From Prosthecobacter sp. (lineage in GTDB: Bacteria; Verrucomicrobiota; Verrucomicrobiia; Verrucomicrobiales; Verrucomicrobiaceae), in assembly GCF_014879935.1 (NCBI RefSeq), contig NZ_JACSRD010000143.1, forward strand, positions 1 through 64,000: 64,000 nucleotides of DNA, read 5' to 3'. The translations under genes were made by a program, and so were the position numbers. The notes beneath the pieces are model-generated. The model saw nothing but the letters and a program-made list of their open reading frames with translations. It searched no databases and had not been told where the DNA came from. Position 1 is the first letter of the stretch; the number at the start of each line of letters is the position of its first letter. Positions 4,542 through 31,189 of this stretch are shown one piece after another.

Positions 4542-5273
4542 TTGCCTCCCCTCCCCAAGATTCCTCGTTTGACGTGCGTCTCGCTGTCGCCATTTCCATA
4601 CACCGTGCACATCGCCCACCAACTGCTGTTCGTCCTGCTGCCCCTCGCGCTCGCCGTGCGTCTGGCGCTGCGGCCATGGCCGCCGGCTGCGGATGTGGCG
4701 GGTGGGGTGATGCGTTTCAGCCTCGGCATTGGCAAAGCCGTGCTGCTGGTTCACCCTCTGCTGCATCTGAGTTCGATGGTTTTGCGTGGCGGCCCGGACA
4801 GCCTCAGCACCAGCGTGGCATGGACAGGCTTCCTGGCGCTGATGCTGGCGTTGCATTTCCTGATCACATCCGCGGGAGACCTGATCGCCGGTCTTTGCGG
4901 GCTGGCTGGAATCAAGCTGACGGACAAGGTGGAAGACGCCTTCAGTCTGCGCAGGCTCAACCACGGCAATCTTGCGCGACATCTGCCGCTGCTGATCTTT
5001 CTGGCAGCTGTCGGCACGCTGGCGCACGGCACCTGGCTGCCCTTGAAGGCGTTGTTCAGTCCGGCACCGCGCAGCATTGCCACGGTGTTCCAGGAAACGC
5101 GTGTGTGGACGGACTTTCACGTCGTCACGATGATCGCAGGGTTTGCCTGCCTGCTGGGCCTGCCATGGTCCCGGGACTTTTTGCGCGCCCCGCTGCCGTG
5201 GAAGGGCGTGATCTGCCTCTGCGTCTTCTTCCTCGCCGCCGTGATGCTCTGGACTCGTGTCTCCCCGATGTGA
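4542..5273 (+). CDS. Uncharacterised multi-pass membrane protein
   Basis: I do not recognise the family. The protein has about six hydrophobic segments (for example AHQLLFVLLPLALAV and AWTGFLALMLALHFLIT) and ends WTRVSPM. The start is uncertain: TTG at 4542, TTG at 4569 or GTG at 4605 all fit, and none has a clear ribosome binding site; the GTG would give a protein beginning directly at the first membrane segment. Its stop overlaps the start of the next gene (TGATG), so it is translationally coupled to the AlgJ/AlgX-like protein. That neighbour usually works with an MBOAT membrane acyltransferase, so this protein may be a divergent partner, but I could not find the MBOAT His motif with confidence. 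Confidence 0.7.
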   Translation: MPPLPKIPRLTCVSLSPFPYTVHIAHQLLFVLLPLALAVRLALRPWPPAADVAGGVMRFSLGIGKAVLLVHPLLHLSSMVLRGGPDSLSTSVAWTGFLALMLALHFLITSAGDLIAGLCGLAGIKLTDKVEDAFSLRRLNHGNLARHLPLLIFLAAVGTLAHGTWLPLKALFSPAPRSIATVFQETRVWTDFHVVTMIAGFACLLGLPWSRDFLRAPLPWKGVICLCVFFLAAVMLWTRVSPM

Positions 5274-6301
5274 TGAAACCGACCACGCCTCCCATCGATC
5301 CGAAAAAGCGCTCGTTCATTCCGCCACCGCCGGAATTGAGCGAAAAGGCGGCGTTGAACCTCATCCGTGCCTTCGCCTGCCTCCTCGCGTTGCCGTTCGT
5401 GTTCGAACTCGCGTCGTGGTTCACGGCGTCAAAGACGAACATGGCCGCCGCGACGGTGCGCAGCGGCATGCAGTGGCTGCTGACGCATGCACTGGGTGAA
5501 GGGAACCTCGCGGTGCATCTCGGCCGCGAAGGCTGGTTGTTCGATCAGCGTGAAATCGACCGCCTGGTGCATGCGAAACGCGATGAGGCCAGCCTGCAGG
5601 CCCGTTTGATCAAGCTGGCGGCCGATTTGAAGGCACAGGACGCGTCTTTGATCGTGGTCGCCATTCCATCACGAGCCGCCTTGTATCCGGAGCAGATTCG
5701 TTCCGGCAACTACCTGTCGCCCGTGCGGCTGCCGGAAGAAAACGCGAAGCTGGAAGAGCTGCAGGCCGCAGGGATCGATGTGATGGACACGACCGACGCG
5801 CTGTGGGAGTTCCGGGACCGGAACATGGTGTTCTTCGCCCAGGACAGCCACTGGACGCCCGATGCCATGAAGGCGGTGGCGCTGGCGGTGAACAAACGGG
5901 TGCGGGAAAAGTTCCCCCGCCTCGTCAGCAGCGAAACACCGATCATCAACGCCACGATCCTCGAACACACGGACAGCGGCGATCTGGCGGACCAGCTCGA
6001 TCCGCTTCATGCGGACAGCCTCCTCGGACACGAGGAAGCAAGCCTCATGGCCATCAAAGGCATCGAACCGGACGCCAAATCGCCCGTCGTGCTGCATGGC
6101 GGCGAATGGATCCGCGTGTTTGATGAGGCTGGACTCAGCTTTGGCGGTGGTGAAAAGCCGCCGCTGGCGGGTTTTTCCACGCACCTCGGCATGCTGCTGG
6201 GCAAACCGGTCGATGTCCGCGGCATGCCTCAGCCGGGCGAGAGCTACGAGGGGAAAAAACTCGTCATCTGCGTGCTGGCAATCCCGGAACTGGTGCCATA
6301 G
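5273..6301 (+). CDS. AlgJ/AlgX-like SGNH hydrolase-fold protein, probably serine-less
   Basis: A 342-residue protein with one N-terminal membrane anchor (~residues 27-48) and an exported AlgX/AlgJ domain. The family O-acetylates exopolysaccharides such as alginate using a Ser-His-Asp triad. The Asp-x-His-Trp-Thr block is present (AQDSHWTPDAM), as is GREGWLFDQRE near the start. However, the block that should carry GDSF/GTSY is read as VVLHGGEWIRVFDEAGLSFG, so the nucleophilic serine appears to be missing. The downstream segment (LLGKPVDVRG) still aligns in order, so the gap is local. The start overlaps the preceding stop by one base. It may be a non-catalytic, polysaccharide-binding relative. 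Confidence 0.8.
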   Translation: MKPTTPPIDPKKRSFIPPPPELSEKAALNLIRAFACLLALPFVFELASWFTASKTNMAAATVRSGMQWLLTHALGEGNLAVHLGREGWLFDQREIDRLVHAKRDEASLQARLIKLAADLKAQDASLIVVAIPSRAALYPEQIRSGNYLSPVRLPEENAKLEELQAAGIDVMDTTDALWEFRDRNMVFFAQDSHWTPDAMKAVALAVNKRVREKFPRLVSSETPIINATILEHTDSGDLADQLDPLHADSLLGHEEASLMAIKGIEPDAKSPVVLHGGEWIRVFDEAGLSFGGGEKPPLAGFSTHLGMLLGKPVDVRGMPQPGESYEGKKLVICVLAIPELVP

Positions 6302-6313
6302 TCCGCGCTTTCC

Positions 6314-6724
6314 ATGCTGCGGCTGCTTCTCCATTTCTTCTTTGGCGGCGTCTTCGTCTATGCAGGCCTGCTGAAGGTGGCCGACCCGATGTCATTCCTC
6401 GACGACATCCGCAGCTTTGACCTGCTGGGCGATCCGTGGGCCGCGTGGCTGGCGATGGGCCTGCCGTGGCTCGAAATCCTGGCCGGACTGGCCGTGATGA
6501 GCGGCTTCCTGCGCTCCGGCGGCATGCTGATCCTGAACGGCTCGCTGGTAGTCTTCCTGATCGCGATCTGCCTCGCGTGGTGGCGCGGCATCGACATCCG
6601 CTGCGGCTGCTTCGGCCACTCCGACGCCACCTCCAGCTATCGCGACCTCATTCTGCGCGATGTGCTGCTGCTGCTCGCCGGGATCGTGCTGGTCTGGCAT
6701 GGCAAACCCAGGGTGCGTTCCTAG
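6314..6724 (+). CDS. MauE/DoxX-family membrane protein
   Basis: A 136-residue protein with four predicted membrane helices. The N-terminal FGGVFVYAGLLKVADP and the GIDIRCGCFG segment between helices 3 and 4 are typical of the MauE/DoxX-like family (small quinone- or thiol-associated membrane proteins, some needed for disulfide formation or methylamine dehydrogenase maturation). The CGCFG motif supplies a cysteine pair suitable for redox chemistry. It lies 12 bases after the AlgJ-like gene and on the same strand, so it is probably in the same operon. No obvious partner for its redox role is adjacent. Confidence 0.85.
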   Translation: MLRLLLHFFFGGVFVYAGLLKVADPMSFLDDIRSFDLLGDPWAAWLAMGLPWLEILAGLAVMSGFLRSGGMLILNGSLVVFLIAICLAWWRGIDIRCGCFGHSDATSSYRDLILRDVLLLLAGIVLVWHGKPRVRS

Positions 6725-6851: not shown

Positions 6852-9731
6852 ATGGCCTCTGATCAAGCATCTCCTGGATCTGACCCGGCCGGATGGGCAC
6901 CGCCCGAGCCGCAGGAGCTCCAGGCCATGCTGCCGAAGTATGAAGTTTCCTCGCTCATCGGACGTGGAGGCATGGGAGCCGTGTATCTCGGCCGGCAGGA
7001 TGCGCTCGACCGGCCGGTGGCCATCAAAATCCTGCCGCCAGGGCTGGAGGAGATCGATCCGGCGTATGGAGCCCGCTTCCGGCAGGAGGCGATGGCTTTG
7101 GCAAAGCTCAACCATCCCGGCATCGTGGCCGTGTATGACTTTGGCCGCACGGAGCAAGGCCTGTGGTACATCGTCATGGAGTATGTGGACGGCACGGATG
7201 TGGCGCGCATGATCCAGGAGCGAGGCCGGTTGAGATCGAAGGATGCCATGGCCGTCACCGCCCATGTGTGCGATGCGCTGGCCTATGCGCATGCCAGGGG
7301 CATCGTGCATCGCGACATCAAACCGGCGAACATCCTCATCGGCGTCAATGGTGCCGTGAAGGTGGCGGACTTCGGGCTGGCGAAGGCCTGGCAAGCAGGA
7401 GGCCACAGCCTGACGATGAGCGGCATGGCGATGGGAACACCCGATTACATCGCTCCAGAGGCGCTGGCGGCGGAGGGAGAGGTGGGGGCGCAGGCCGATG
7501 TGTATGCTCTGGGAGTGATGCTTTACCACATGCTCACAGGTGATTTACCGCGTGGGCTGTTTGAGCTGGCATCCAAGAAGATCAACGGCCTCGACCCACG
7601 CTTCGACGACATCATCGCCCAGGCGATGAAGAATGATCCCGCACAGCGTTATCCCGGGGTGGAGGCACTGCGGCGTGATCTGGACGCGTTGTTCACGACG
7701 CCTGCGGTGAAGGTTGATCCCGCCGCCTCTCAGGCCCCCGCCGCCTTGAACACGGTGCCTCAACCAAGAAGGCCCGCGCCACCACCGGCGCGCCAGCCGA
7801 CCCGCCCACAGCCCCGGAAAAAATCCTTCGATTGGAGCTTCTGGGGGCCTGTGGGGGCGATGGCAGTGGGTTTAGTGTCGTTCGTGGCGTCGCAAAACCT
7901 TCCGCCGTCCGAACGGAAGACCATTCAGCGCCTCGAAGGCGAGGCATTGCAAGTCGAGGAGGTTACCGCGGGCCGGGCGGCGACGCAGAAGACCGGGGCC
8001 TTCCACGCAGGCGTCTGGAGCGCTGATGCACATCTCTGGTGGGTGGGCGGAAAGCTGGGCGAGCGTCTCAAGCTCCAGTTCTCCGTATCCGAGCCAGGAT
8101 TACAGCGTGTGAAGGCCGTGCTGACGGGGGCTTATGACTACGCAGTCGCTGAAGTGTCATTGGATGGCCGTGTCGTTCAGGGATCGCCTTTTGACATGCA
8201 GGTGGAGGCCATCGTCACCTCGGACATTTTGGATTGGGGTGTCTTCGATCTACGCGGCGGCGATCATGTTCTGGAAGTCAAGCTGGTGGCCAATCACGGC
8301 AAGGTGTGGAAAGACCGCGATGGGTTCTGCTTCGGGCTGGATTACCTCCAGTTCGAACCACAGGAGGTCCGAACGACGCCCGCCGTCGCAGGCACCGATG
8401 TGGCCCCGCAGGCGCGGCCAAGCAGTTCGCAGTGCTCTGGAGATCATGTGCGGCACATGAATGACGGCAAAGCCATCACGAGGCCAGATTCCGGCCGTGC
8501 TCAGCGCATGACCTGGCACCCGCATCGTGGTGGCATGGAATGGGTGCAGCTCGAATGGGAGACACCGCAAATCCTTGGAGAATGCCAGGTCGTCTGGTTT
8601 GTGGATGCGGCTTCGGCGCTGCCAGAGTTTTGGCGGTTGCTTTACCGGGAGGAATCCGGTGCCTGGGTGCCGGTGGATGCAGCCATGCCTGCCGCAGAGC
8701 AGAACAAATGGTGCGTGGTGAAGTTCCCTCCCATCAAGACCACCGCGCTGCGAATTGCTGCGCAATGCAAAGAAGGCTTTTGGGCGGGCATCTGCCACTG
8801 GCGGGCCATCACCGCGGATCCGGCTGATGCCATCCCAGCGCCCGTCAAACGTGATCTCCTGCTCTCAGAACTGTCGCCACTGCATGCGCAGTCCGGGTGG
8901 GGGCTCTACCGGGCCAACAACTACGGTGCCGTGGATGAGCGTCATGGACGCGGCGTCTTCCTCGGCGGGGTTCGCTGCACCCATTACCTGTGGGCGCATC
9001 CGATGAGCCGCACGGTGTTTGCCATCCCCAGCGGCTGCACCAGCTTCACCACCACCGGGATCGGGCCATCCGATCTGAGGACTGGCAAGCCCTCAGGCGG
9101 TTATGGGAGCTGGAAGCACATCATCGAAGTGGACGGGAAGAAGTTGTTCGAATCGAAGGAGCTCAAAACCTATCCCGGTCAGGAACTGCCCATCGCCATC
9201 AGCTTCCCGGCAGGTTCCAGACAGCTCACCCTCATCACCGACAATTGCGGTGATGGGAACAGCGATCACGCCTTCTGGGCGTATCCCACGCTCCAGGCGT
9301 CCGATGATTCCATCAAGCCGTTGGCCGCCGACGCTCAAAACCCGCCTGTGATCACGCTGCGGCTTGCCAGTGATCCCAAGAAAGCCTTCGGGGCTCAGCC
9401 GGGCGGAGATTTGAGGCACGGCACACAGCCCGTGGCATTCAGAGTTGTTCCAGGCATCGCCGACCGCAAACTCGTCTCCTTGGAAATGGTGGGCAGTCCG
9501 GGGCATTTCGTCCGGCATTCCTGGGCGGTGGCTCGTGTGCAAAAAAAAGCAGGCCCGGAGGATGATGTCTTCGACCTCGATGCCACCTGGAAGATGACTT
9601 TGATCGGAGATGCCAGGGCGCGTTTCGAGTCGCTGAACTACCCCGGCACCTTTTTGGTGGCCAAGGACGATGGCAGTGTCGTCCAGGTCAATGCCGCCCC
9701 TCTCAGCCATTCCGTTTTTCTTTTGAAGTAA
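6852..9731 (+). CDS. Transmembrane Ser/Thr kinase with carbohydrate-binding-like ectodomain (discoidin, NPCBM, AbfB)
   Basis: A 959-residue Hanks-type kinase. Residues ~30-285 form the kinase: GRGGMG at 37-42, VAIK with Lys59, HRD at 153-155, DFG at 173-175 and APEA near 201. A Pro-rich linker (~290-325) leads to one membrane helix (~330-347). The outside part has four modules: a beta-rich domain (~370-505), a discoidin/F5-8C-like domain (~530-655, WVQLEWETPQ, PEFWRLLYRE), an NPCBM-like domain (~667-815, ELSPLHAQSGWG, FAIPSGCTSF) and an AbfB-like beta-trefoil (~862-959, RFESLNYPGTFLV). These modules usually bind glycans on secreted hydrolases, so the protein reads as a glycan-sensing receptor kinase. 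The ATG at 6852 is preferred; the longer frame has no domain. Confidence 0.88.
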   Translation: MASDQASPGSDPAGWAPPEPQELQAMLPKYEVSSLIGRGGMGAVYLGRQDALDRPVAIKILPPGLEEIDPAYGARFRQEAMALAKLNHPGIVAVYDFGRTEQGLWYIVMEYVDGTDVARMIQERGRLRSKDAMAVTAHVCDALAYAHARGIVHRDIKPANILIGVNGAVKVADFGLAKAWQAGGHSLTMSGMAMGTPDYIAPEALAAEGEVGAQADVYALGVMLYHMLTGDLPRGLFELASKKINGLDPRFDDIIAQAMKNDPAQRYPGVEALRRDLDALFTTPAVKVDPAASQAPAALNTVPQPRRPAPPPARQPTRPQPRKKSFDWSFWGPVGAMAVGLVSFVASQNLPPSERKTIQRLEGEALQVEEVTAGRAATQKTGAFHAGVWSADAHLWWVGGKLGERLKLQFSVSEPGLQRVKAVLTGAYDYAVAEVSLDGRVVQGSPFDMQVEAIVTSDILDWGVFDLRGGDHVLEVKLVANHGKVWKDRDGFCFGLDYLQFEPQEVRTTPAVAGTDVAPQARPSSSQCSGDHVRHMNDGKAITRPDSGRAQRMTWHPHRGGMEWVQLEWETPQILGECQVVWFVDAASALPEFWRLLYREESGAWVPVDAAMPAAEQNKWCVVKFPPIKTTALRIAAQCKEGFWAGICHWRAITADPADAIPAPVKRDLLLSELSPLHAQSGWGLYRANNYGAVDERHGRGVFLGGVRCTHYLWAHPMSRTVFAIPSGCTSFTTTGIGPSDLRTGKPSGGYGSWKHIIEVDGKKLFESKELKTYPGQELPIAISFPAGSRQLTLITDNCGDGNSDHAFWAYPTLQASDDSIKPLAADAQNPPVITLRLASDPKKAFGAQPGGDLRHGTQPVAFRVVPGIADRKLVSLEMVGSPGHFVRHSWAVARVQKKAGPEDDVFDLDATWKMTLIGDARARFESLNYPGTFLVAKDDGSVVQVNAAPLSHSVFLLK

Positions 9732-9775: not shown

Positions 9776-12193
9776 ATGTCCTCTGAAGACTCCCCCACGT
9801 CAAACGACCCGCTTTTCGGCAATGCCGCCAGCGACCTCCTCCGAGGTGCCGCAGGCGGCGATGCACAGCCGCCTTCCGATCCACGTTACTGGCAGCCGCC
9901 AACGCCCGAGGAACTGCAATCCCGCCTCGAGGGCTACGTCATTGAGGCCTTCCTCGCCCGAGGCGGCATGGGCGCGGTGTATCGCGGCATGCAGGCCTCG
10001 CTGGAGCGGGCGGTGGCCATCAAAATCCTGCCGCCTTCGCTTGGTGAGCACGATCACAGCTTCGTCCTCCGCTTCAAGCAGGAGGCCCGCGCCATGGCGC
10101 AGCTCAACCACCCCGGCATCGTGAAGGTCTATGACTTTGGTGAGATGAGCGATGGCACGCTCTACTTCGTGATGGAGTTCATCGAAGGCACCGATGTGGC
10201 GCGCATGATCGCCAGCCAGGGGCGGCTGCACTCAGCGCATGCGATGGCCATCACCGCGCATGTGTGTGATGCGCTGCAATACGCGCACCAGCTCGGCATC
10301 ATCCATCGCGACATCAAGCCGGCCAACATCATGGTGGGAAGTGACGGCACGGTGAAGGTGGCGGACTTCGGCCTCGCGAAGTCCTTCAACAGCGGGCACA
10401 CCACGCTCACCATGACCGGCCATGTCATGGGCACGCTCAATTTCATGGCCCCGGAGGCGCTCATGCTCGGCAGCGCGGTCGATCACCGTGCGGACATCTA
10501 TGCCGTGGGCGTCATGCTTTACCAGATGCTCACGGGAAGGCTGCCGCAGGGCCTGTTTGAGATGCCCAGCCTCCTCGTGCCGGGACTCGACCCGCGCTAC
10601 GACGCCATCATCGCCTATGCGATGCGTGAGAATCGGGATCATCGCTATCAGAGCATCTATGACATGCGCTGCGCGCTGGATTCCATCCTCACGCAGCCGG
10701 TCTTACAAGTTGCCACGCTGCCTCAGGTCACCGAACTGCAGCAAACGACGGCGGCAACTGCCAGCGCCACGGCACCGGCCCGCACCAGTTCGCCACCGCC
10801 ACCCCGTCCTGGCCAGCCGCGTTCTCCACAGGGCCCACGCCCTCCGCAGGGCAGCAAGGCGGCACCCGTGGTGAAAAAATCATCGGGCTCCGGCGTCTGG
10901 CTCGTCGTCGCCATCATGGTGCTGGGTCTGGGCGGCTTTGCGTGGATGCAGATGGGCAAATCGCACACGGATTCACCCAGAACGAATCTCCAGAAGATCG
11001 GCGATACCGTCATTCCTCAACTCAACTTTTACAAAGCCAGCCTCGCGGAAGCCTGTGAATTCGTGCGGGTCAAAGGCAGGGAAATCTCTGGCCAGCATGT
11101 GAACATCATCATCGGACCTGAGTTTGCGGAGAGCAGGCATGAGATCACCTGCAACTTCGCCCAGGTCTCACTCGCTGACGCGCTCGCCTACATCGCGGAC
11201 ATCTGCGATGCCGAGGTCGCCACTGCTCCGGAGTCATTTCGCCTCCGGCCCAGATCGACCAGGTCGCAGGCGCTCGATCCCTGGGCCGTCCAGTCCTTCG
11301 GTGAAGCAGGCAAGATCGTCATCCCCAGCGTTCGCTTCCAAAACGCCACCATTGAGGAAGCGGTCGAGTTCCTGACACTCAAGAGCCGTGATCTGGATCC
11401 CCAGAAAAAGGGCCTGGTGATCCTCCTGGACGAGACTGCCATCAGCGCCGCCGGAAAAGTCACCTACGACAGCCACAACATCACCGCAGCCAACGCTGTC
11501 GCACAGGTCGCCGCTGCGGCAGGGCTCGAGATCCACCGTGTGGGAGACGCCGCACGCCTGCGGGCATCGGCAAAGCCGAAGCAGCTGGCAACAGCGCCTT
11601 CACCTGCGCCAGCTCCCGCTACCGCGCAGCCTGTCACGCCACCCGCTGGCCCCATCAAGCTCCGCCCCTCCCGCGAGGACGGCGAGCCTTCGATCCTCCG
11701 CTTCGTCAACAAGCTCTCCGAAGAGGTGAAAATCCAGCTCGTGGACAGTCGTGGGCGACTCATCAAGGCATCAAACCTCAGAGCCGGTGCCACGAGCGGA
11801 AGGCACACCTTGATCGGGCAGGTATGGCTCATCACGTCGAAGAGCGGGGTGCAGCTCGGACTGGTGGAATCACGCACGGCGAAAAGCATCATCACCATCA
11901 GCACGGCAGGCATCGAGGAGAAGGTGGATCAGACGCCGGATCGCGAACTGGTCACCATGGTCCAGTTGACCGGTGCCAGCATCGGCGATGCCGTTTCCCT
12001 CCTGCGCCAGCGTGTCGCGGCTGCCGGACTCGCCACCAGGATCGAACTCGATCCGCGGGTCGATCCAAAGGCGGGCAGCATCCACCTGGATGCCCAGACG
12101 ACAGCGCTCGAAGAAATCATCGAGATATGCGCCTACCATGCTGGCATGAGACCCAGCAAAGATGGCGTCAATTATCGCATCGTCCCTCGCTAA
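9776..12193 (+). CDS. Transmembrane Ser/Thr kinase with secretin/STN-like repeats
   Basis: An 805-residue kinase starting at ATG 9776, 44 bases after the previous kinase. Kinase domain ~54-305: the glycine loop reads ARGGMG (first Gly replaced by Ala), AIK Lys83, HRD 177-179, DFG 197-199. A Pro/Ala-rich linker follows, then one membrane helix (~372-391). The extracytoplasmic part holds three related units: ~412-490 (PQLNFYKASLAEACEFV), ~515-597 (PSVRFQNATIEEAVEFL) and ~725-803 (VQLTGASIGDAVSLL). Such 'xLxxxxxxEAxxFLxxKS' units match the secretin N-domain/STN type repeats that are common in Verrucomicrobiota. Next to it lies a small secretin-domain protein, suggesting that they interact. The kinase core is a paralogue of the preceding gene. 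Confidence 0.88.
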   Translation: MSSEDSPTSNDPLFGNAASDLLRGAAGGDAQPPSDPRYWQPPTPEELQSRLEGYVIEAFLARGGMGAVYRGMQASLERAVAIKILPPSLGEHDHSFVLRFKQEARAMAQLNHPGIVKVYDFGEMSDGTLYFVMEFIEGTDVARMIASQGRLHSAHAMAITAHVCDALQYAHQLGIIHRDIKPANIMVGSDGTVKVADFGLAKSFNSGHTTLTMTGHVMGTLNFMAPEALMLGSAVDHRADIYAVGVMLYQMLTGRLPQGLFEMPSLLVPGLDPRYDAIIAYAMRENRDHRYQSIYDMRCALDSILTQPVLQVATLPQVTELQQTTAATASATAPARTSSPPPPRPGQPRSPQGPRPPQGSKAAPVVKKSSGSGVWLVVAIMVLGLGGFAWMQMGKSHTDSPRTNLQKIGDTVIPQLNFYKASLAEACEFVRVKGREISGQHVNIIIGPEFAESRHEITCNFAQVSLADALAYIADICDAEVATAPESFRLRPRSTRSQALDPWAVQSFGEAGKIVIPSVRFQNATIEEAVEFLTLKSRDLDPQKKGLVILLDETAISAAGKVTYDSHNITAANAVAQVAAAAGLEIHRVGDAARLRASAKPKQLATAPSPAPAPATAQPVTPPAGPIKLRPSREDGEPSILRFVNKLSEEVKIQLVDSRGRLIKASNLRAGATSGRHTLIGQVWLITSKSGVQLGLVESRTAKSIITISTAGIEEKVDQTPDRELVTMVQLTGASIGDAVSLLRQRVAAAGLATRIELDPRVDPKAGSIHLDAQTTALEEIIEICAYHAGMRPSKDGVNYRIVPR

Positions 12194-12222
12194 CCCCTTT
12201 CTCATCCCCTCCTCTCAAAGAC

Positions 12223-13035
12223 ATGAAAACACACACCATCCTCATCGGCTTTTTCCTCACCCTCAGCGCCGCCGCGTTTGCCCAGGTGAAAGACATCCAG
12301 ATCAACGCCAAGGTCGTCAGCGTGCCGCTGGACCCCGCCGCGCTTCGTGACGCCGGCCTCACGCTCGACAGCACGGCTGCCGTTTCAAAGCTCGGCGTCA
12401 TTCCGGCGGAAAAAGTCGCCGAAGTGCTCGCCAAGCTCGAGAAAATGCCTGGCCACACGTTGCTGAACGCCCCCTCCGTCACGACCAAAAGCGGCACACG
12501 GGCTACGAGCCAGAGCACGCGCGAATTCATCTACCCAACGGAGTTCGTGCCGCCACGTTTCTCACCCGCAGCAGGTGACAAGCCAGTCACCTTGGCATCT
12601 GGTCAGGCCGTTACTGCCATTCCGTCCACCCCGGAGAGCTTTGAGATGCGAATGACCGGCTTCCGTCTGGAAATCGAACCTGTCATCGGTCCCGATGGCA
12701 ACACCCTCGATCTGAATCTCGCCCCGGAACTGGTCACCTTTGAGGGCTTCGTCAATTACGGCTCCCCCATCAAGGCCGCGGCGCTCGACAAGGACGGCAA
12801 ACTTCAGGAGGTCGTTCTGACGGAAAATCAGGTGCTCCAGCCAGTCTTCAGCACCGTGAAGAGCACCACCGGTGCCACGATGCCGAGCGGCCACGTGCTG
12901 GTCCTTGGAGGGGCCAGCAGCGGAACGCTGCCCTCCGCCACCAACAAGCCTGATCTCAAGCAGGAAGCCAAGCTCGACGGCAAGCCCACTCACGCCGTCT
13001 TTTTCTTCATTCAAGCCAAGGTGTTCACACCTTGA
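12223..13035 (+). CDS. Secretin-domain-like exported protein
   Basis: A 270-residue protein with a signal peptide (first ~20 residues, ending AAAFAQ) that starts at ATG 12223, 29 bases after the second kinase gene. The core matches the type II/III secretion secretin domain: NAPSVTTKSGTRA around residues 80-92, FRLEIEPVIGPDGNTLDLNL around 145-165 and the Verrucomicrobiota-typical TFEGFVNYGSPI. It is much shorter than a real PilQ/GspD and lacks recognisable N-domains, so it cannot form a complete secretin channel alone. Together with the STN-type repeats on the adjacent kinase it may form a split secretin-like assembly. Function is not known. Confidence 0.8.
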   Translation: MKTHTILIGFFLTLSAAAFAQVKDIQINAKVVSVPLDPAALRDAGLTLDSTAAVSKLGVIPAEKVAEVLAKLEKMPGHTLLNAPSVTTKSGTRATSQSTREFIYPTEFVPPRFSPAAGDKPVTLASGQAVTAIPSTPESFEMRMTGFRLEIEPVIGPDGNTLDLNLAPELVTFEGFVNYGSPIKAAALDKDGKLQEVVLTENQVLQPVFSTVKSTTGATMPSGHVLVLGGASSGTLPSATNKPDLKQEAKLDGKPTHAVFFFIQAKVFTP

Positions 13036-25057: not shown

Positions 25058-25077
25058 ACCACACGACTGCGGTTCAA
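25054..25077. terminator. Short inverted repeat at the comEC/kinase convergent junction
   Basis: TTGAACC at 25054-25060 pairs with GGTTCAA at 25071-25077 across a 10-base loop. It sits across the stop codons of two convergent genes and could end both transcripts. There is no T-run, so this is a weak call. Confidence 0.3.
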
Positions 25078-27983
25078 CGGAACGGCGAGAAGTGAATGAC
25101 ATGGATGCGCAGCTTCATGTCCGCCGCGCCCGGCTTGGACGGTCCCAGCACCTCGAGGATGCCTGACACACGATGGGTGACGAAGGCTAGGACAGCCGGG
25201 GAACGCTCATGGATCAGCGTGAAGCCACCGCGTGCAGGTCTGGTGTCGCGTGCCTGGCGCAAGGCTGCTGCGAGCTGTCGATCATCAATGGTCATCCAAT
25301 CGAAGCCGGAAGGCTGGTCACGCGTGATCACGGCCGTGCTGCCGTCGAAAAGCTTCAAGCCACCCTCCGGACCGGGCAGCAGCATCAGGTTCGCGTTGTT
25401 TTCACGCAGCCAGTCCTGATCATCGGATGACAAGAGGGCATTCGGATCACGCAGTTTCTGCAGGAGGATGGCTGGAGGCGTGGGCGTGTCCAGCGGCCAC
25501 AGACGGAGCAGGCAATCGCCGCCCTGTTCGGGTGATTCCAGCACCACCTCCCGGCGAATCGGGACCTGGGCGATTCTGTAGATGGTTTCATGCACCCTGA
25601 ACTCGGTATCCGAGCCAGACATGAGCACGCCATTCTTGGTCCACTGGAGGTAAGGACCCGAGGTGAACTTCCGACCTGCAGAACCTTGGAGGTCCTGAAG
25701 AACGAGTCGTTTCATGCGTCCCTCAGGAGGCAGTTCCAGGGTGTTCTGCGGCTGGGAATGCGTGTAGCCATTGGCGATCAGCCAGAGATTGACGTGCCTT
25801 TCGACGAGCCGTGGGAAGTGTTTCTCCAGAAACTCCGCTTTGGGAGGCGCGGGCCGGGTGGTCAAAATGTAAAACAGGCATGACATGCCGGCGAACGGCA
25901 GGACCAGCGGGAGAACCCATCGACGGCCCGCATATCGGCTCACAGGCGGCCGCTGCGGTGGCGGCGCGATCTGGCGCAGCCTTTTCCAGAACCACAGCCA
26001 GACCACGATGGAAACGGCCGCAGCCGTCCATCCGACGGCCGCGATGATCGGCCCTGAATCAGGCGGAATGGTCGTCACCGTTCCGTCCTCCAGGTAGCGC
26101 TGCGTGCCGAGCTTTCCCATCAAGGCGACGAAGAGCACCACTGCGAGCACCAGGTTCCCCAGAAACAGTGGCAGGGCGAGCGCGGCAGCAGCAGCCAGTC
26201 CGAGGCCGGTCAACCTGCCCGCGGAGGACCGGATGATGTTCACCGACCCGATGCCGATGAGAGTGACAACGGTGGCCAGCAATGTGGTCACCACCGATAC
26301 AGCCAGATTCCCGCTCCACCGGTCAAAGCTCCACTCCGGGGATTCGGCTGCACGCCGCATCATGATGCCGCCGGCGAAAAACACCCACCAGCCCAGCAGT
26401 GCGAACATGGCGGCCCCCGCCAAAGCATGGCGGGAGACTTTTTTCCGGCCGGCCGGCACAGCGTCTGGCAGAAACGGCGGCGTACCCGGCTTCGGCAAAT
26501 GATGGAGAATGGGAGAGAGCGTGTGCTCGAAACGGAAAAGCACCGCTCCTGTGAGCAAGGCCGCCAGGCCGCTGATGAGCCCACCCCAGCGCAGTGACTC
26601 ATAGGCATACGGACTGGTGTCGGACCAGGCATTCCAGAGCCGCGGCGTGAACTCGATCAGGTAGCTGGCTCCGAGAACGACCAGCCACAGGCCCAGCAGC
26701 CTCAGCGCGATGCCGAAGACCTCCCTGACTGGCGATGGCGGCAAGATAAGCGTGCGGTAACTCAACCGGATCAGCAAGCGCGTGCGCCAGATCAATATCC
26801 AGGCTGCCACGAGGCCCAGGAGATTCGGGATCTGCTTCTCGAAGAAACCAGCGGTCAATCGTTCAGGCTGCAGGGTCCATTCACGCCGGTCGAACAAGGG
26901 CAAAACCAAGCATAACAGGCCAAACAGCAGCCACGGCCAGCCGACGGTGCGAAGCAGACGGCCAAACCAGCGCTCGTAGCTTTCCCGTGGGTAGATTTGT
27001 GGCTCTGGCGGCGTCTTTGCCAGCGTGTCCAGATGCGTACGAAACTCGGCGACGGTCTGAAAACGCTGCTCGGGATCCTGCTGCAGCGCACGGCGCACGA
27101 TCTCGTCGATCTGCGTGCTCATGGACGTGCGTTCCGCCAGCACCGGTAGCTGGCCGGAAGGCAGCTCGCCCGTGAGCAGCTCATACAGCACCACACCGAG
27201 CGAGTAGATGTCCGCGCGATGATCGGAACGAGCTGCCGCGTCCCGTTGTTCGGGCGCCATGTACTGCGGTGTGCCCGCCACGATCGTCGCACGAGACCTG
27301 CTGGCATCCGCAGCGGCCGTTCCGGCCTCCACCGGGCTGCCGCTCATCATTTTGGCGATGCCGAAGTCGGCGATCTTCACACGGCCGGCCTTGTCGATGA
27401 GAAGGTTCTCCGGCTTGATGTCGCGATGCACGATGCCGTGCTCGTGCGCGTATTGCAGCGCATCACAGATCGGTGGCACGATCGCCAGTGCCTGTTCCGG
27501 GCTGAAATGCGAGCCCTGCATCGCCTGACGGAGGTTCACCCCATCGACAAACTCCATCAGCAGGTAGTAGAAGCCGCCGGACTCCCCGAAATCGTGCACC
27601 GTGACGATGCTGGGATGGTTCAGCGCGGCGAGCGCCCGCGCCTCGTGTGCGAAGCGTGCGGCGAAGGCCGCGTCCTTCTTCTGCTCGGGCGCCAGCAGCT
27701 TGAGGGCCACGATGCGGTCCAGCGCCTTCTGCCGCGCCTTGTAAACCACGCCCATGCCACCACGGCCGATGCAGGCGAGGATTTCGAGGTGCGGGAAGTG
27801 CGGGGCGAGGTCCTCCGGCGTCAGCGGCGGCTGGGGCGGTGCCACAGGCCCCGTGGCATCCTGCGTGGGGCTCATGGCCACATCCATCAGGCAGACGGGG
27901 CAGAGTCCCGGCTGAAAACCGGCGGGAAGCAGGTCATTGCAGCGCGTGCACCGGGTGCTGGAAGGAGGGGAAGGCGGGCTCAT
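25074..27983 (-). CDS. Ser/Thr kinase with zinc ribbon and multi-pass membrane C-terminus
   Basis: A 969-residue kinase. A short zinc-ribbon-like start (CTRC about 12-15, CPVC about 28-31) precedes the kinase domain (~65-325): GRGGMG near 73, VALK Lys95, HRD near 186-188, DFG near 206-208. Then come about eight hydrophobic segments between roughly 345 and 705, and a C-terminal soluble part of unknown fold (~720-969). It lies downstream of an ECF sigma factor gene on the same strand with a 51-base gap. This pairing is known in Planctomycetota and Verrucomicrobiota, where the kinase is thought to activate the sigma factor by phosphorylation, since there is no anti-sigma gene. Confidence 0.88.
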   Translation of the reverse strand: MSPPSPPSSTRCTRCNDLLPAGFQPGLCPVCLMDVAMSPTQDATGPVAPPQPPLTPEDLAPHFPHLEILACIGRGGMGVVYKARQKALDRIVALKLLAPEQKKDAAFAARFAHEARALAALNHPSIVTVHDFGESGGFYYLLMEFVDGVNLRQAMQGSHFSPEQALAIVPPICDALQYAHEHGIVHRDIKPENLLIDKAGRVKIADFGIAKMMSGSPVEAGTAAADASRSRATIVAGTPQYMAPEQRDAAARSDHRADIYSLGVVLYELLTGELPSGQLPVLAERTSMSTQIDEIVRRALQQDPEQRFQTVAEFRTHLDTLAKTPPEPQIYPRESYERWFGRLLRTVGWPWLLFGLLCLVLPLFDRREWTLQPERLTAGFFEKQIPNLLGLVAAWILIWRTRLLIRLSYRTLILPPSPVREVFGIALRLLGLWLVVLGASYLIEFTPRLWNAWSDTSPYAYESLRWGGLISGLAALLTGAVLFRFEHTLSPILHHLPKPGTPPFLPDAVPAGRKKVSRHALAGAAMFALLGWWVFFAGGIMMRRAAESPEWSFDRWSGNLAVSVVTTLLATVVTLIGIGSVNIIRSSAGRLTGLGLAAAAALALPLFLGNLVLAVVLFVALMGKLGTQRYLEDGTVTTIPPDSGPIIAAVGWTAAAVSIVVWLWFWKRLRQIAPPPQRPPVSRYAGRRWVLPLVLPFAGMSCLFYILTTRPAPPKAEFLEKHFPRLVERHVNLWLIANGYTHSQPQNTLELPPEGRMKRLVLQDLQGSAGRKFTSGPYLQWTKNGVLMSGSDTEFRVHETIYRIAQVPIRREVVLESPEQGGDCLLRLWPLDTPTPPAILLQKLRDPNALLSSDDQDWLRENNANLMLLPGPEGGLKLFDGSTAVITRDQPSGFDWMTIDDRQLAAALRQARDTRPARGGFTLIHERSPAVLAFVTHRVSGILEVLGPSKPGAADMKLRIHVIHFSPFR

Positions 27984-28034: not shown

Positions 28035-28751
28035 TCAGCGGTTTCTCAAAGCATCGAAGAGCACCTGCATCTCCTCATTCACCGCAGACTCATCCTCCAG
28101 CGTCGAGGCAATCTCCCTCCGCACGAGAGTCCTGAAACGCTGCCGCAGACGGCTGGTGATCGCCTTGAGGGTGTTCACATTCACGCCCAGAGATGCGGCG
28201 AGCGCTGCTTGTTCGCCATGAACCGCGTCGCCGTTGAGCCAGGGACGCAGTTGCTCGAACACCGCGCCCTTTTCTTCGGCGTGCTGCTCCTCACGCAGGG
28301 CCTCCATCGCACGATTCAGCACGGTGAGCGCCCATTCGCGGTCAAAAGCCGCGTCCGGGGACATTTGGGAGGCGTCTGCCAGCGTGGGTGCGTCCTCCCC
28401 ATCCAGTGAGACCGGGCTCTCACCGCCGCCACGCCGCAGACGCATCGCCGCCTCGCGTCGATGGGAGAGAAAATGCTTCACGGCACCGAGCAGGTAGGAG
28501 CGGAACCGCCCGCGTGACTGCTCCGCCTGCGTGATGCTGCTGCCTGCCAGCACCGTGGCGAAGAAATCGTGCGCCAGATCGCGGGCCTCATCCTCCGCAC
28601 GGCCCTCGCGACGCAGAAAGGCGATCACCGGCGCATAGTAGGCCGCGCAGAGCTGCCGCAGGGCCTCCTGGCCTTCGGTGGAGGATTCGCGTGCCAGCAC
28701 CACCCGGCTCCAGCGGGTGGTGTGAAACGTGAACGAGGTCGGCAGGGACAT
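28035..28751 (-). CDS. ECF RNA polymerase sigma factor (kinase-associated type)
   Basis: A 238-residue sigma-70 family protein starting at ATG 28751; an ATG at 28763 is four codons further upstream. The opening FTFHTTRWSRVVLAR is the signature of the ECF group that is genetically linked to Ser/Thr kinases. Region 2 (ALRQLCAAYYAPVIAFLRREG, DLAHDFFATVL) and region 4 (LAASLGVNVNTLKAITSRLRQRFR) are visible, and a variable segment lies between. It precedes the kinase gene by 51 bases, and probably both form one transcript. No zinc-binding anti-sigma gene is near, consistent with kinase-controlled activity. Confidence 0.88.
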   Translation of the reverse strand: MSLPTSFTFHTTRWSRVVLARESSTEGQEALRQLCAAYYAPVIAFLRREGRAEDEARDLAHDFFATVLAGSSITQAEQSRGRFRSYLLGAVKHFLSHRREAAMRLRRGGGESPVSLDGEDAPTLADASQMSPDAAFDREWALTVLNRAMEALREEQHAEEKGAVFEQLRPWLNGDAVHGEQAALAASLGVNVNTLKAITSRLRQRFRTLVRREIASTLEDESAVNEEMQVLFDALRNR

Positions 28752-28894
28752 GGTGGCGAGCATAACCACCTCCCTGACGGATCGGAAGCCAATCGTTGCG
28801 GCTGAATCGCGATTCACGCACCAGCGGCGGACGAGGCGACACCACTCGCCCCGCCCGCCAGGGAGTCCTGCCCCCTCATGGCGGCGGGACACAT

Positions 28895-31189
28895 TCAAAA
28901 CAGCACTGTCAGCGCCACGCGGCCGCTGATGCCGGGCTGCGTGAAGCGGTCGAGATCCGCACGGGAGGTGTCGAGGCCGCGGACATCCTGATGCCGCCAG
29001 TGTTTTTCATTGGTCAGGTTGTAGATGCCGGCGTTGAGGCTCACGTTTTTCGTGATCTGCCAGCGGCCCACCAGGTCCAGGGTGAAGGCGCTCGGGACTT
29101 CAAACTGCCGGATGCCGCCCGGGATCGATGAACTGCGGTTCTGGCGGGCAAAAAAGGTCGAGACGAGCTCCACCTGCCACGTGTCACGGCGATAGCGCAG
29201 ACCGGTGACCAGCTTGAACGGGTCGATGCTGGCGAGCGGCTGTTTATACTGGCCGTCGTAGCCCTGGACATAGGCGGCATTGCCGAACAGGCCGAAATTG
29301 CTTAGCGCCTCCGAGATGAAACCGAGATCCGCCTCGCCCTTGAACTCGACGCCAAATATCTCCGCCGACGACAGGTTGGTACTCTGGTAGATAAGAGGGT
29401 CGCCAGGGGCACCGGTGCCGCCGACCAGGAGGAAGGTCTCAATGAAGTCGGTGTAGTAGTTGTAGAAGCCTGCCAGGTTCCAGGAGGCATGCTTTCCCTG
29501 CCGGCGCACGCCCAGTTCGAAGCTGTGGCTCGTCTCCATCTCCAGATCTGGATTCGGAATGGTCTGATAGCCGAACGGAATGTTTGTGATCGTGGCGTTG
29601 AGTTCCTCGGCGCTTGGGTTGCGGAAACCGCTGGCATACTGGACGTAAGCGGCGTGCTCCTCATCAAACTTCACGAGGAAAGCCAGCTTCGGGGCGACGG
29701 CGAACTGCTCGAAGTCCTGCGGCGCCCGCCCGCCGCTGGCATTGCTGTAAAGCGGGTCCATCGAAGTGCTCACGCCATAGTACTCTGCACGAACACCAGG
29801 CGTCAGGCGGTAGCGCCCGTTTTCACCCCAGGAGATTTCATCCTGAAGGTAAAGGCCGGCACGTGAGGTGCGTGTGTCCGGCATGTCCTTCAGCGGGTAG
29901 GTGTCCGGGGTGAGGACCTTCGTCTGCGTGTTGGTGGTGAAATTGAACTCCGTGGCATCACGCACACGACGCACGTTCGAGGTCACCAGTTCGGCGCCAT
30001 AGGCGAGGGAGTGCTTCACCGCGCCTGCGTCGAGGTCTTTGGTGAAGTTGAGGTTCAGGCCGACGTGATCCTGACGGTAAAGATAATCACGAATGCGGAG
30101 ACGATCGTGGAACGTGGGCGTCAGCCGGTCGCGATCCTCATAAATGTGCTCGCGTGTCTCCGAGTTCTGGTAGTAGGCGTTCCAAGTCACCTTGTCGAAG
30201 AGCCAGCCGAGTCTGGAAGCGTCGAATTGATGCTCCAGGCTGAAGCGCATGCGATGGAGGTCGTCATTGAGGAGGTGGACATTCGTCCGGAACTGAAAAC
30301 CGGCGCTCAGGAAGGTGCGGCGGGTGCTGACGAGGTCGTTGTCGCTCTCGCGCTCCAGGTACTCGCCCGTGAGCTCAAATCGATGGCGGTCGGAAGGGGT
30401 CCACACGAGCTTCGCCAGCCAGTTGTTCACGTTATAGCTGCTGGGATCGGGCTGGATGGCGCCACGATTGTCGAGTTCGTTGCCGTCACGCCGTGTGTAA
30501 TGCAGCAGCCACTCCACATTGCCCGCACGCTGCGCGGTGCTCAACGTGTGCCCCCATGAATCGTCCGCCGAGTCGTATCGATTGATCACGCGGGTGACGA
30601 AGTCGTTGCCCGTGAGGTCGAGCAGGTCGGACGGATCGATGGTGGTGAAGGAAACCACGCCGCCGAGAGCGTCGCTGCCATACAGCGACGAGGCGGAGTT
30701 CTTGAGGATCTCGACCTGCTTGAGCGAATCCACATCAAGGTAGTCGCGGCCGATGTTGTAAGCGCCTCCAAACGAAAACACATCCGGCTGGCGTGCGCCG
30801 TCCACGGTCATCAGCACGCGGTTGCCATCCATGCCACGGATGTTGATGCTGGAGGTCCCGGCACGGGAATTGGCGCCGGGTCCCGTGCCGCCCACGCCGT
30901 AGGAAAGGCTCACGCCTGGCTCATAGCGCTGGTAGTCCCTCATGCTGGTGGCCAGGGAGAAGACGCTGGCATCATTATCGAGGACGGCGACGGAGGCCGG
31001 CACGTCCATGGCGGAGTGTTCGGTGCGCGTCGCGATGACCACGATCTCCGGCATCACGCCGCCGGTGGGGTTGCCGGTCTTGGTCAGCCTGGTTTCTTCT
31101 GCTTCTGTCTTGGGCACCTCCTGTGCGTGCAGCGAAAGGCAGCAGGCGAACAGGCAGAGAGCGAACGGGAGTACGGTCGATGTTTTCAT
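28895..31189 (-). CDS. TonB-dependent hemoglobin/heme-type outer-membrane receptor
   Basis: A 764-residue receptor with signal peptide (first ~22 residues, ending LHAQ), a TonB box (PEIVVIATR, ~48-56), plug domain and 22-strand barrel that ends in Phe (RVALTVLF). The plug segment NIRGMDGNRVLMTVDGARQP followed by YLDVDSLKQVEILKNSASSL is typical of the hemoglobin/transferrin/lactoferrin receptor family (HutA/HmuR-like). These bind heme or hemoproteins and import heme using TonB energy. The gene lies 124 bases downstream of two tiny genes in the same direction. I do not see the 17-bp box of the other receptors upstream. Confidence 0.88.
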   Translation of the reverse strand: MKTSTVLPFALCLFACCLSLHAQEVPKTEAEETRLTKTGNPTGGVMPEIVVIATRTEHSAMDVPASVAVLDNDASVFSLATSMRDYQRYEPGVSLSYGVGGTGPGANSRAGTSSINIRGMDGNRVLMTVDGARQPDVFSFGGAYNIGRDYLDVDSLKQVEILKNSASSLYGSDALGGVVSFTTIDPSDLLDLTGNDFVTRVINRYDSADDSWGHTLSTAQRAGNVEWLLHYTRRDGNELDNRGAIQPDPSSYNVNNWLAKLVWTPSDRHRFELTGEYLERESDNDLVSTRRTFLSAGFQFRTNVHLLNDDLHRMRFSLEHQFDASRLGWLFDKVTWNAYYQNSETREHIYEDRDRLTPTFHDRLRIRDYLYRQDHVGLNLNFTKDLDAGAVKHSLAYGAELVTSNVRRVRDATEFNFTTNTQTKVLTPDTYPLKDMPDTRTSRAGLYLQDEISWGENGRYRLTPGVRAEYYGVSTSMDPLYSNASGGRAPQDFEQFAVAPKLAFLVKFDEEHAAYVQYASGFRNPSAEELNATITNIPFGYQTIPNPDLEMETSHSFELGVRRQGKHASWNLAGFYNYYTDFIETFLLVGGTGAPGDPLIYQSTNLSSAEIFGVEFKGEADLGFISEALSNFGLFGNAAYVQGYDGQYKQPLASIDPFKLVTGLRYRRDTWQVELVSTFFARQNRSSSIPGGIRQFEVPSAFTLDLVGRWQITKNVSLNAGIYNLTNEKHWRHQDVRGLDTSRADLDRFTQPGISGRVALTVLF

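Follow-up and report, generated by a model that had tools for sequence, protein, structure and literature searches.

A predicted receptor-like Ser/Thr kinase with four carbohydrate-binding-type modules in Prosthecobacter sp.

To our knowledge, the signal sensed by most bacterial receptor Ser/Thr kinases is unknown. Here we analyse a gene for one such protein, located in a 64,000-nucleotide (nt) stretch of Prosthecobacter sp. DNA (assembly GCF_014879935.1, contig NZ_JACSRD010000143.1, positions 1 to 64,000 of the forward strand; hereafter the window), in which an intact Hanks-type Ser/Thr kinase is followed by a linker rich in Pro and basic residues, by a single predicted membrane helix and by four modules homologous to carbohydrate-binding modules (CBMs). 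Plant lectin/malectin receptor-like kinases and animal discoidin domain receptors likewise combine a sugar-binding or discoidin ectodomain, one helix and a cytoplasmic kinase, but in the opposite chain order, the kinase being N-terminal here, and an independent origin is presumed. The PknB/PASTA kinases share with the window protein a PknB-type kinase domain and one helix, and their PASTA domains bind a glycan-containing polymer; no PASTA domain was found in the window kinase by Pfam scan.

The RsgI anti-sigma-I factors of Clostridium thermocellum are membrane transducers with an outer CBM, and the best Protein Data Bank (PDB) match of the fourth module described below is a chain of one of them, RsgI5 (9fnk, 3.5e-9), whose domain order has been given as RsgI_N-UNK-CBM42 (PMC4711584). 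The RsgI proteins, however, belong to a Gram-positive organism, and their output is a sigma factor that an anti-sigma domain holds, whereas the window protein is a Ser/Thr kinase with four different modules in a Gram-negative one; Pfam lists no RsgI_N anti-sigma domain in it, and its N-terminal part is the kinase. The Bacteroides hybrid two-component systems BT1754 and BT0366 couple periplasmic carbohydrate sensing to a phosphorylation output (PMC3404733), but they do so through a histidine kinase; the Pfam result for the window protein contains no HisKA/HATPase or receiver domain. In the pairs PknS-EcfK and PknT-EcfP (ECF43), a receptor kinase is coded beside an extracytoplasmic function (ECF) sigma factor, which in the case of PknS-EcfK it phosphorylates (PMC13147305), and phosphorylation of ECF43 and ECF59 sigma factors by kinases has been reviewed (PMC8103513). 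Receptor-like kinases of Planctomycetota and Verrucomicrobiota have been described as single-spanning proteins with periplasmic TPR, WD40, sulfatase-modifying or DUF1080 domains, and two sections of that account mention neither NPCBM nor AbfB, nor a carbohydrate-binding ectodomain of four modules (PMC11032199). Among the papers listed by our searches of open-licence literature, which are weak evidence of absence, none was seen to describe a kinase that carries an ectodomain of this kind; no paper was found in which NPCBM occurs together with 'threonine protein kinase', and the words 'carbohydrate', 'lectin' and 'discoidin' are absent from the main text of two domain surveys (PMC1262709, PMC2877116). 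The combination of four modules on a Ser/Thr kinase did not appear in these searches; known already are membrane signalling proteins with a CBM and, in this superphylum, kinases whose periplasmic domains vary.

Architecture of the kinase and its ectodomain

The gene is divided as follows.

6852..9731, + strand: receptor-like Ser/Thr kinase, 959 aa, whole gene (open reading frame, Pfam, congener comparison)
6939..7652, + strand: Hanks-type kinase domain, predicted cytoplasmic, residues 30-267, catalytic motifs intact (Pfam, kinome hidden Markov model, motifs)
7707..7832, + strand: Pro-rich basic juxtamembrane linker, residues about 286-327 (sequence)
7833..7895, + strand: predicted membrane helix, residues about 328-348 (hydropathy)
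7920..8378, + strand: module 1, residues about 357-509, CBM84/xanthan-binding-like (profile against PDB)
8391..8816, + strand: module 2, residues about 514-655, F5/8 type C (discoidin-like), kin to modules on GH127 proteins (relatives)
8856..9293, + strand: module 3, residues 669-814, NPCBM/NEW2 (CBM51-like; PF08305)
9327..9728, + strand: module 4, residues 826-959, AbfB (CBM42-like), with one partial pocket, His889 + Asp910 (PF05270)

The open frame of 959 aa runs from an ATG at 6852, with GGGAGG 10 nt upstream, to a stop ending at 9731, and the start of the orthologue in the congener G041 is similar (MAS..SPG.DPA.W.PP.PQELQAMLPKYEV). The kinase domain matches PF00069 over the curated cut-off at residues 30-234 (E 7e-51) and extends over residues 30-267 according to a hidden Markov model (HMM) built from the kinome of this genome. 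The motifs GRGGMGAV, AIK, HRDIKPAN, DFG and APE start at residues 37, 57, 153, 173 and 201, so that the Gly-rich loop, catalytic Lys, HRD, DFG and APE of a Hanks-type kinase are all present, in agreement with an earlier, sequence-only reading of the gene. Identity as a PASTA kinase (PknB/Stk1) was considered and dropped, the match to NF033483 reaching 285.2 bits against a cut-off of 450 and covering residues 29-312 only.

The same reading had predicted one membrane helix, and a single candidate is indeed present at residues about 328-348. It is weak in the window protein, where the best 19-mer has a hydropathy of 1.44, under the threshold of 1.6, and clearer in the two orthologues (1.90 and 2.21); Arg/Lys immediately precede it. 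In a Gram-negative cell, a single helix with a basic stretch on the kinase side would orient the kinase to the cytoplasm and the modules to the periplasm. A periplasmic ectodomain is thus probable, the location also given for kinase-linked domains of this superphylum (PMC11032199), and sensing outside the cell, as first suggested, is doubtful.

All four modules are homologous to CBMs, and the expectation that the C-terminal half would hit carbohydrate-binding folds in HMM searches was thus borne out, for two modules directly, for one by profile and for one mainly through its relatives. The direct matches are module 3, which exceeds the curated cut-off of PF08305 (NPCBM) at residues 669-814 (7.4e-14, 52.4 versus 23.9 bits), and module 4, which exceeds that of PF05270 (AbfB) at residues 859-945 (9.6e-13, 48.9 versus 22.8 bits). 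For module 2, the discoidin likeness proposed at the outset is sub-threshold when the module is compared alone with F5_F8_type_C (PF00754; E 9e-4, 19.8 bits versus a cut-off of 28.2), and this family is not matched in the full-length Pfam scan; its support comes from relatives, as 21 of the 27 best-scoring outside the kinase group have an F5/8-C match (E<=0.001, anywhere in the protein). A match to the GH127 beta-L-arabinofuranosidase family occurs in 15 of the same 27, and NCBIfam gives a weak match of residues 507-610 to beta-L-arabinobiosidase HypBA2 (3.5e-4).

Module 1, whose likeness to xanthan-binding modules had not been named in the sequence-only reading, has no Pfam match in the window protein. 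When a profile was built from 22 sequences, that of the window among them, a PDB search gave matches to the xanthan-binding module MiXBM (7ehg, 4.1e-8) and to a Paenibacillus xanthan lyase (6f2p, residues 785-895, 1.4e-6); the matches are those of the profile as a whole, and by sequence homology they assign it to CBM84. Residues 785-895 of 6f2p would be the CBM84 of that lyase, judging from a study in which MiCBMx and PspCBM84, from two xanthanases, were found by modelling to have similar structures (PMC10049358). Pfam finds weak, scattered matches at most among the 22 sequences, the commonest being CBM_6 (4/22, best E 0.013).

Orthologues, module exchange and the kinase pair

Among the matches listed, three species of a single genus carry this ectodomain on a kinase. 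Beside the window's they are G048, with 62% ectodomain identity, and G041, with 49%; the G048 protein reads the same as that of contig CAINGK010000221.1 (L004), from an uncultured Verrucomicrobia metagenome-assembled genome. In both congeners the kinase is followed by conserved modules 1-3. When modules 2-4 were compared with 386 genomes of the order, some match was obtained in 88, and among the matches listed modules 2 and 3 were both matched over most of their length in four genomes, those of the three species and G106; a kinase domain was present only at the loci of the three species among the 32 inspected. A search of the phylum with modules 2-3 (387 genomes) likewise found a kinase at none of the other loci among 101 scanned. 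The fusion therefore looks rare, a count that refers to loci returned by the searches (up to 30 per search), with about 1500 nt of flank each and no more than four or five candidates scored in any one genome. AbfB itself is rare, being present in 3 of 387 genomes of the phylum and at one place in the window's genome.

The ectodomain query was matched in 63 of 68 genomes of the family, nearly always over module 1 only, and module 1 forms the end of many other proteins of the family; the example in this genome (L003) looks like a HEAT-repeat cytochrome-type protein. Modules 1-3 also occur, with 44% identity, in a paralogue without a kinase (L002, G000:C243:32270-33544), where they follow a GYF_2 domain and a hydrophobic helix and where a sub-threshold SHD1 stretch lies near the end; in G106, which belongs to another family, modules 2-3 stand on a protein in which no kinase was detected. 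The stack thus seems to be passed as a whole from one kind of head to another.

A second receptor-like kinase gene follows directly 3' of the first in all three species (in the window, at L146 in G041, and in G048 as at L004, which has the same protein).

9776..12193, + strand: tandem second receptor-like kinase, with kinase, helix, STN-like repeats and VHL-beta-like stretch (PF00069, 1.8e-48)

Its helix has a hydropathy of 2.08, and STN is sub-threshold in Pfam. The kinase domain is 78% identical between the window and G048, and the tail is 61% identical over 200 residues, with STN-like repeats, between the window and G041; no match to this tail was found in G048, whose kinase 2 has a thioredoxin-like domain at the end of its tail. 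At the position of AbfB, kinase 1 of G041 (tail L006) carries a VHL-beta-like domain (PF01847, 2.9e-5), and in the window a VHL-beta-like stretch is found on kinase 2; Pfam gives no PF01847 match in the latter, but the two tails match by BLAST (2e-8). Its location on a different kinase of the pair points to an exchange of modules between the two kinases. VHL-beta takes its name from the human VHL tumour suppressor, and domains like it are seen here on ectodomains of bacterial kinases.

Immediately ahead of kinase 1 of G041 lies the end of an ECF-like sigma gene (L146:7220-7972). Its product has no Pfam match itself and is homologous to genes of the window's genome that match Sigma70_ECF; among the kinase loci scanned, its closest homologue lies beside another kinase (L077, E 1.8e-119).

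Proposed glycan sensing and competing explanations

The protein is probably a receptor kinase that senses a glycan of some kind. In more detail, we propose tentatively, as an idea that we regard as somewhat more doubtful than probable, that it is a single-pass receptor kinase which senses a branched or arabinofuranose-bearing glycan by its four modules, with glycan-responsive transcription as the output. The N-terminal kinase would lie in the cytoplasm, and the four CBM-type modules, projecting into the periplasm, would bind such a glycan or oligosaccharide there by several weak contacts. Multivalent binding would cluster the receptors, whereupon the kinase domains would trans-autophosphorylate, as in PknB-type kinases, and the signal would pass to kinase 2 and/or to an ECF-like sigma factor, which here would have to act from another locus; this output is suggested by the gene neighbours, and its result would be glycan-responsive transcription. 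The hint of arabinofuranose comes, by homology, from the AbfB match of module 4 and the GH127 kinship of module 2. Also in favour are the intact kinase motifs, the four consecutive CBM-like modules, the RsgI5 match of module 4, the conservation of modules 1-3 and of the tandem kinase in both congeners, the sigma gene beside kinase 1 in G041 and at 20 of 76 kinase places in the window's genome, and the precedent of PknS-EcfK. Were a ligand demonstrated, the input of a bacterial Hanks kinase would be defined, and the large kinase and sigma repertoire of the superphylum would become more accessible. The modules that make up the sensor half lend themselves to direct ligand tests on glycan arrays, and the phylum is known to break down polysaccharides.

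A number of observations weigh against this proposal. Binding of sugar by the modules, and an effect of such binding on kinase activity, are putative, and NPCBM and F5/8 folds can bind proteins or lipids too. PDB profile searches are marginal for module 2 (8q2h, best E 0.035) and for a four-sequence profile of module 3 (2vng, E 0.061), and a single-sequence phmmer search of PDB with the NPCBM stretch gave no match. Structure prediction, which had been suggested as a check beside the HMM search, proved unusable: an AlphaFold2 model of the ectodomain from two sequences has a mean predicted local distance difference test (pLDDT) score of 36 and a predicted template modelling (pTM) score of 0.24, and no structural claim is drawn from it. 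In the AbfB module one repeat of three, by eye, keeps a His/Asp pair (His889 + Asp910), the other two being devoid of one. The arabinose-filled CBM42 pockets of AtAbf43C are formed by H70/Y73/D89 and H118/Y121/D136, with Tyr at His+3 (PMC12493170), whereas in the window protein the His+3 residue is Ala, so that the aromatic partner is lost, and the His-Asp spacing is 21 versus 19 and 18. The module would thus retain at most one partial sugar pocket. As the G041 orthologue, one of two, has no AbfB match, a fixed arabinan specificity is unlikely, and to speak of a 'full' carbohydrate-binding ectodomain, as the sequence-only reading did, is too strong as regards AbfB. In G048 the Gly-rich loop of kinase 1 (L147:8331-11126, - strand) is missing from the frame and from all three upstream frames, suggesting that this gene is truncated or misassembled. 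No sigma homologue was found near the window kinase at 6852, and no polysaccharide-degrading enzyme was found among the neighbouring genes scanned, which make up a small part of the window. Finally, the ECF43-type phospho-motif QTTA (PMC13147305) was sought in the G041 sigma factor and is replaced by QAEDLKQA.

One alternative, unlikely but to be taken seriously, is that the receptor surveys the cell's own envelope or exopolysaccharide, such as matrix, an O-acetylated polymer or peptidoglycan strands, and not a nutrient polysaccharide. The probable periplasmic placement would suit such a role, as would the resemblance of module 1 to modules that bind xanthan, a bacterial exopolysaccharide (PMC10049358), and upstream, on the kinase's own strand, there is an AlgX-like gene.

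5267..6301, + strand: AlgX-like gene, upstream (PF16822, 6.9e-24; association not conserved)
6314..6724, + strand: MauE/DoxX membrane protein gene, upstream (PF07291, 4.3e-28; association not conserved)
12205..13035, + strand: third gene, for a secretin-domain protein that resembles a portion of the Amuc_1098 family (NF042912, partial, 2.1e-51)

However, neither G041 nor G048 has a match to the AlgX-like gene next to its kinase, and modules 2 and 4 resemble modules of arabinofuranosidases. With tblastn (1e-3), the AlgX-like, MauE, upstream membrane-protein and third genes were all without a match in L146, L147 and L004, and we accordingly give low weight to a functional link with the AlgX-like exopolysaccharide gene. 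The third gene has a Secretin score of 26.6 bits, just below the cut-off of 27.5.

Equally unlikely, in our estimation, is that the ectodomain is a degenerate scaffold whose modules bind a protein partner (for example, kinase 2 or an outer-membrane protein) or merely space the receptor. The incomplete AbfB pocket and the VHL-beta-like domain that occupies the place of AbfB in G041 are in keeping with this idea, as are a kinase 2 tail that is related between the window and G041 and unmatched in G048, and the presence of modules 1-3 behind GYF_2 on a non-kinase protein. A scaffold is less easily reconciled with the good conservation of modules 1-3, at 62% ectodomain identity with G048, or with the many Trp residues invariant in four sequences, although that these face a ligand is a guess. 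That the fusion is a product of shuffling in a kinome that changes fast, and is now decaying or without function, is very improbable: the fusion is confined to three species among the matches listed and the G048 kinase is truncated, but 959 codons remain open, the catalytic motifs are intact here and, by eye, in G041, and the tandem kinase order is kept in three species.

Kinome and sigma-factor neighbours

The genome contains 77 Pkinase matches, 75 of them over the cut-off, which correspond to 76 places after one split hit is merged. Tails were listed for kinases with at most two predicted helices after the kinase and a tail of at least 150 aa, and 48 of the 54 listed were scanned (all except L125, L132, L140, L143, L144 and L145). 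These 48 ectodomain tails carry TPR (10), FGE-sulfatase (9), WD40 (7), LRR (4), C-type lectin (2), DUF1080-type (2), F5/8-C with laminin G (1), peptidoglycan-binding (1) and receiver (1) domains, or no domain (11); some of the matches are below the curated cut-off, with E<=0.001 for most and <=0.01 in one scan. The spectrum resembles the published picture of the superphylum (PMC11032199), and NPCBM or AbfB was found in none of the 48 tails. Other kinase ectodomains of sugar-binding type are present in this genome (L102, L105 and L107), so that the window kinase is an extreme member of a repertoire and does not stand alone. In L105 (G000:C148:52746-53528), the kinase is combined with laminin-G-like and F5/8-C modules (F5/8-C 1.2e-17).

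At 20 of the 76 kinase places an ECF-like sigma homologue lies directly upstream, and at 3 directly downstream, on the same strand and with a gap of -400 to 600 nt (of 26 rows flagged, three on the opposite strand were dropped as artefacts of the gap rule); six kinase loci have less than 700 nt of upstream sequence, and the count may therefore be too low. These places and the G041 locus share with the ECF43 pairs a receptor kinase beside an ECF sigma factor (PMC13147305). The window kinase has no adjacent sigma homologue, and the G041 sigma factor lacks the QTTA signature. A Thr two positions after the conserved Asp of sigma region 2.2, which is not the ECF43 motif, occurs in 13 of 31 aligned homologues taken from the kinase loci (two rows being the same gene). 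That Verrucomicrobiota possess a glycan-sensing network, in which swappable carbohydrate-binding ectodomains on a conserved kinase chassis are wired to dedicated ECF-like sigma factors, is a broader suggestion that we consider distinctly unlikely at present. If true, such a network would do with kinases in Gram-negative cells what the RsgI/SigI polysaccharide sensors do in clostridia, and it would be the bacterial analogue of the lectin receptor kinases of plants.

Elsewhere in the window, a third kinase gene (25077-27983, - strand) codes for nine predicted hydrophobic helices after the kinase, and directly upstream of it lies an ECF-like sigma homologue (28038-29006, - strand). At another place of the genome (G000:C284:67953-69125) an ECF sigma match is followed directly by NPCBM matches in a 1216-codon frame, possibly a glycan-linked sigma locus.

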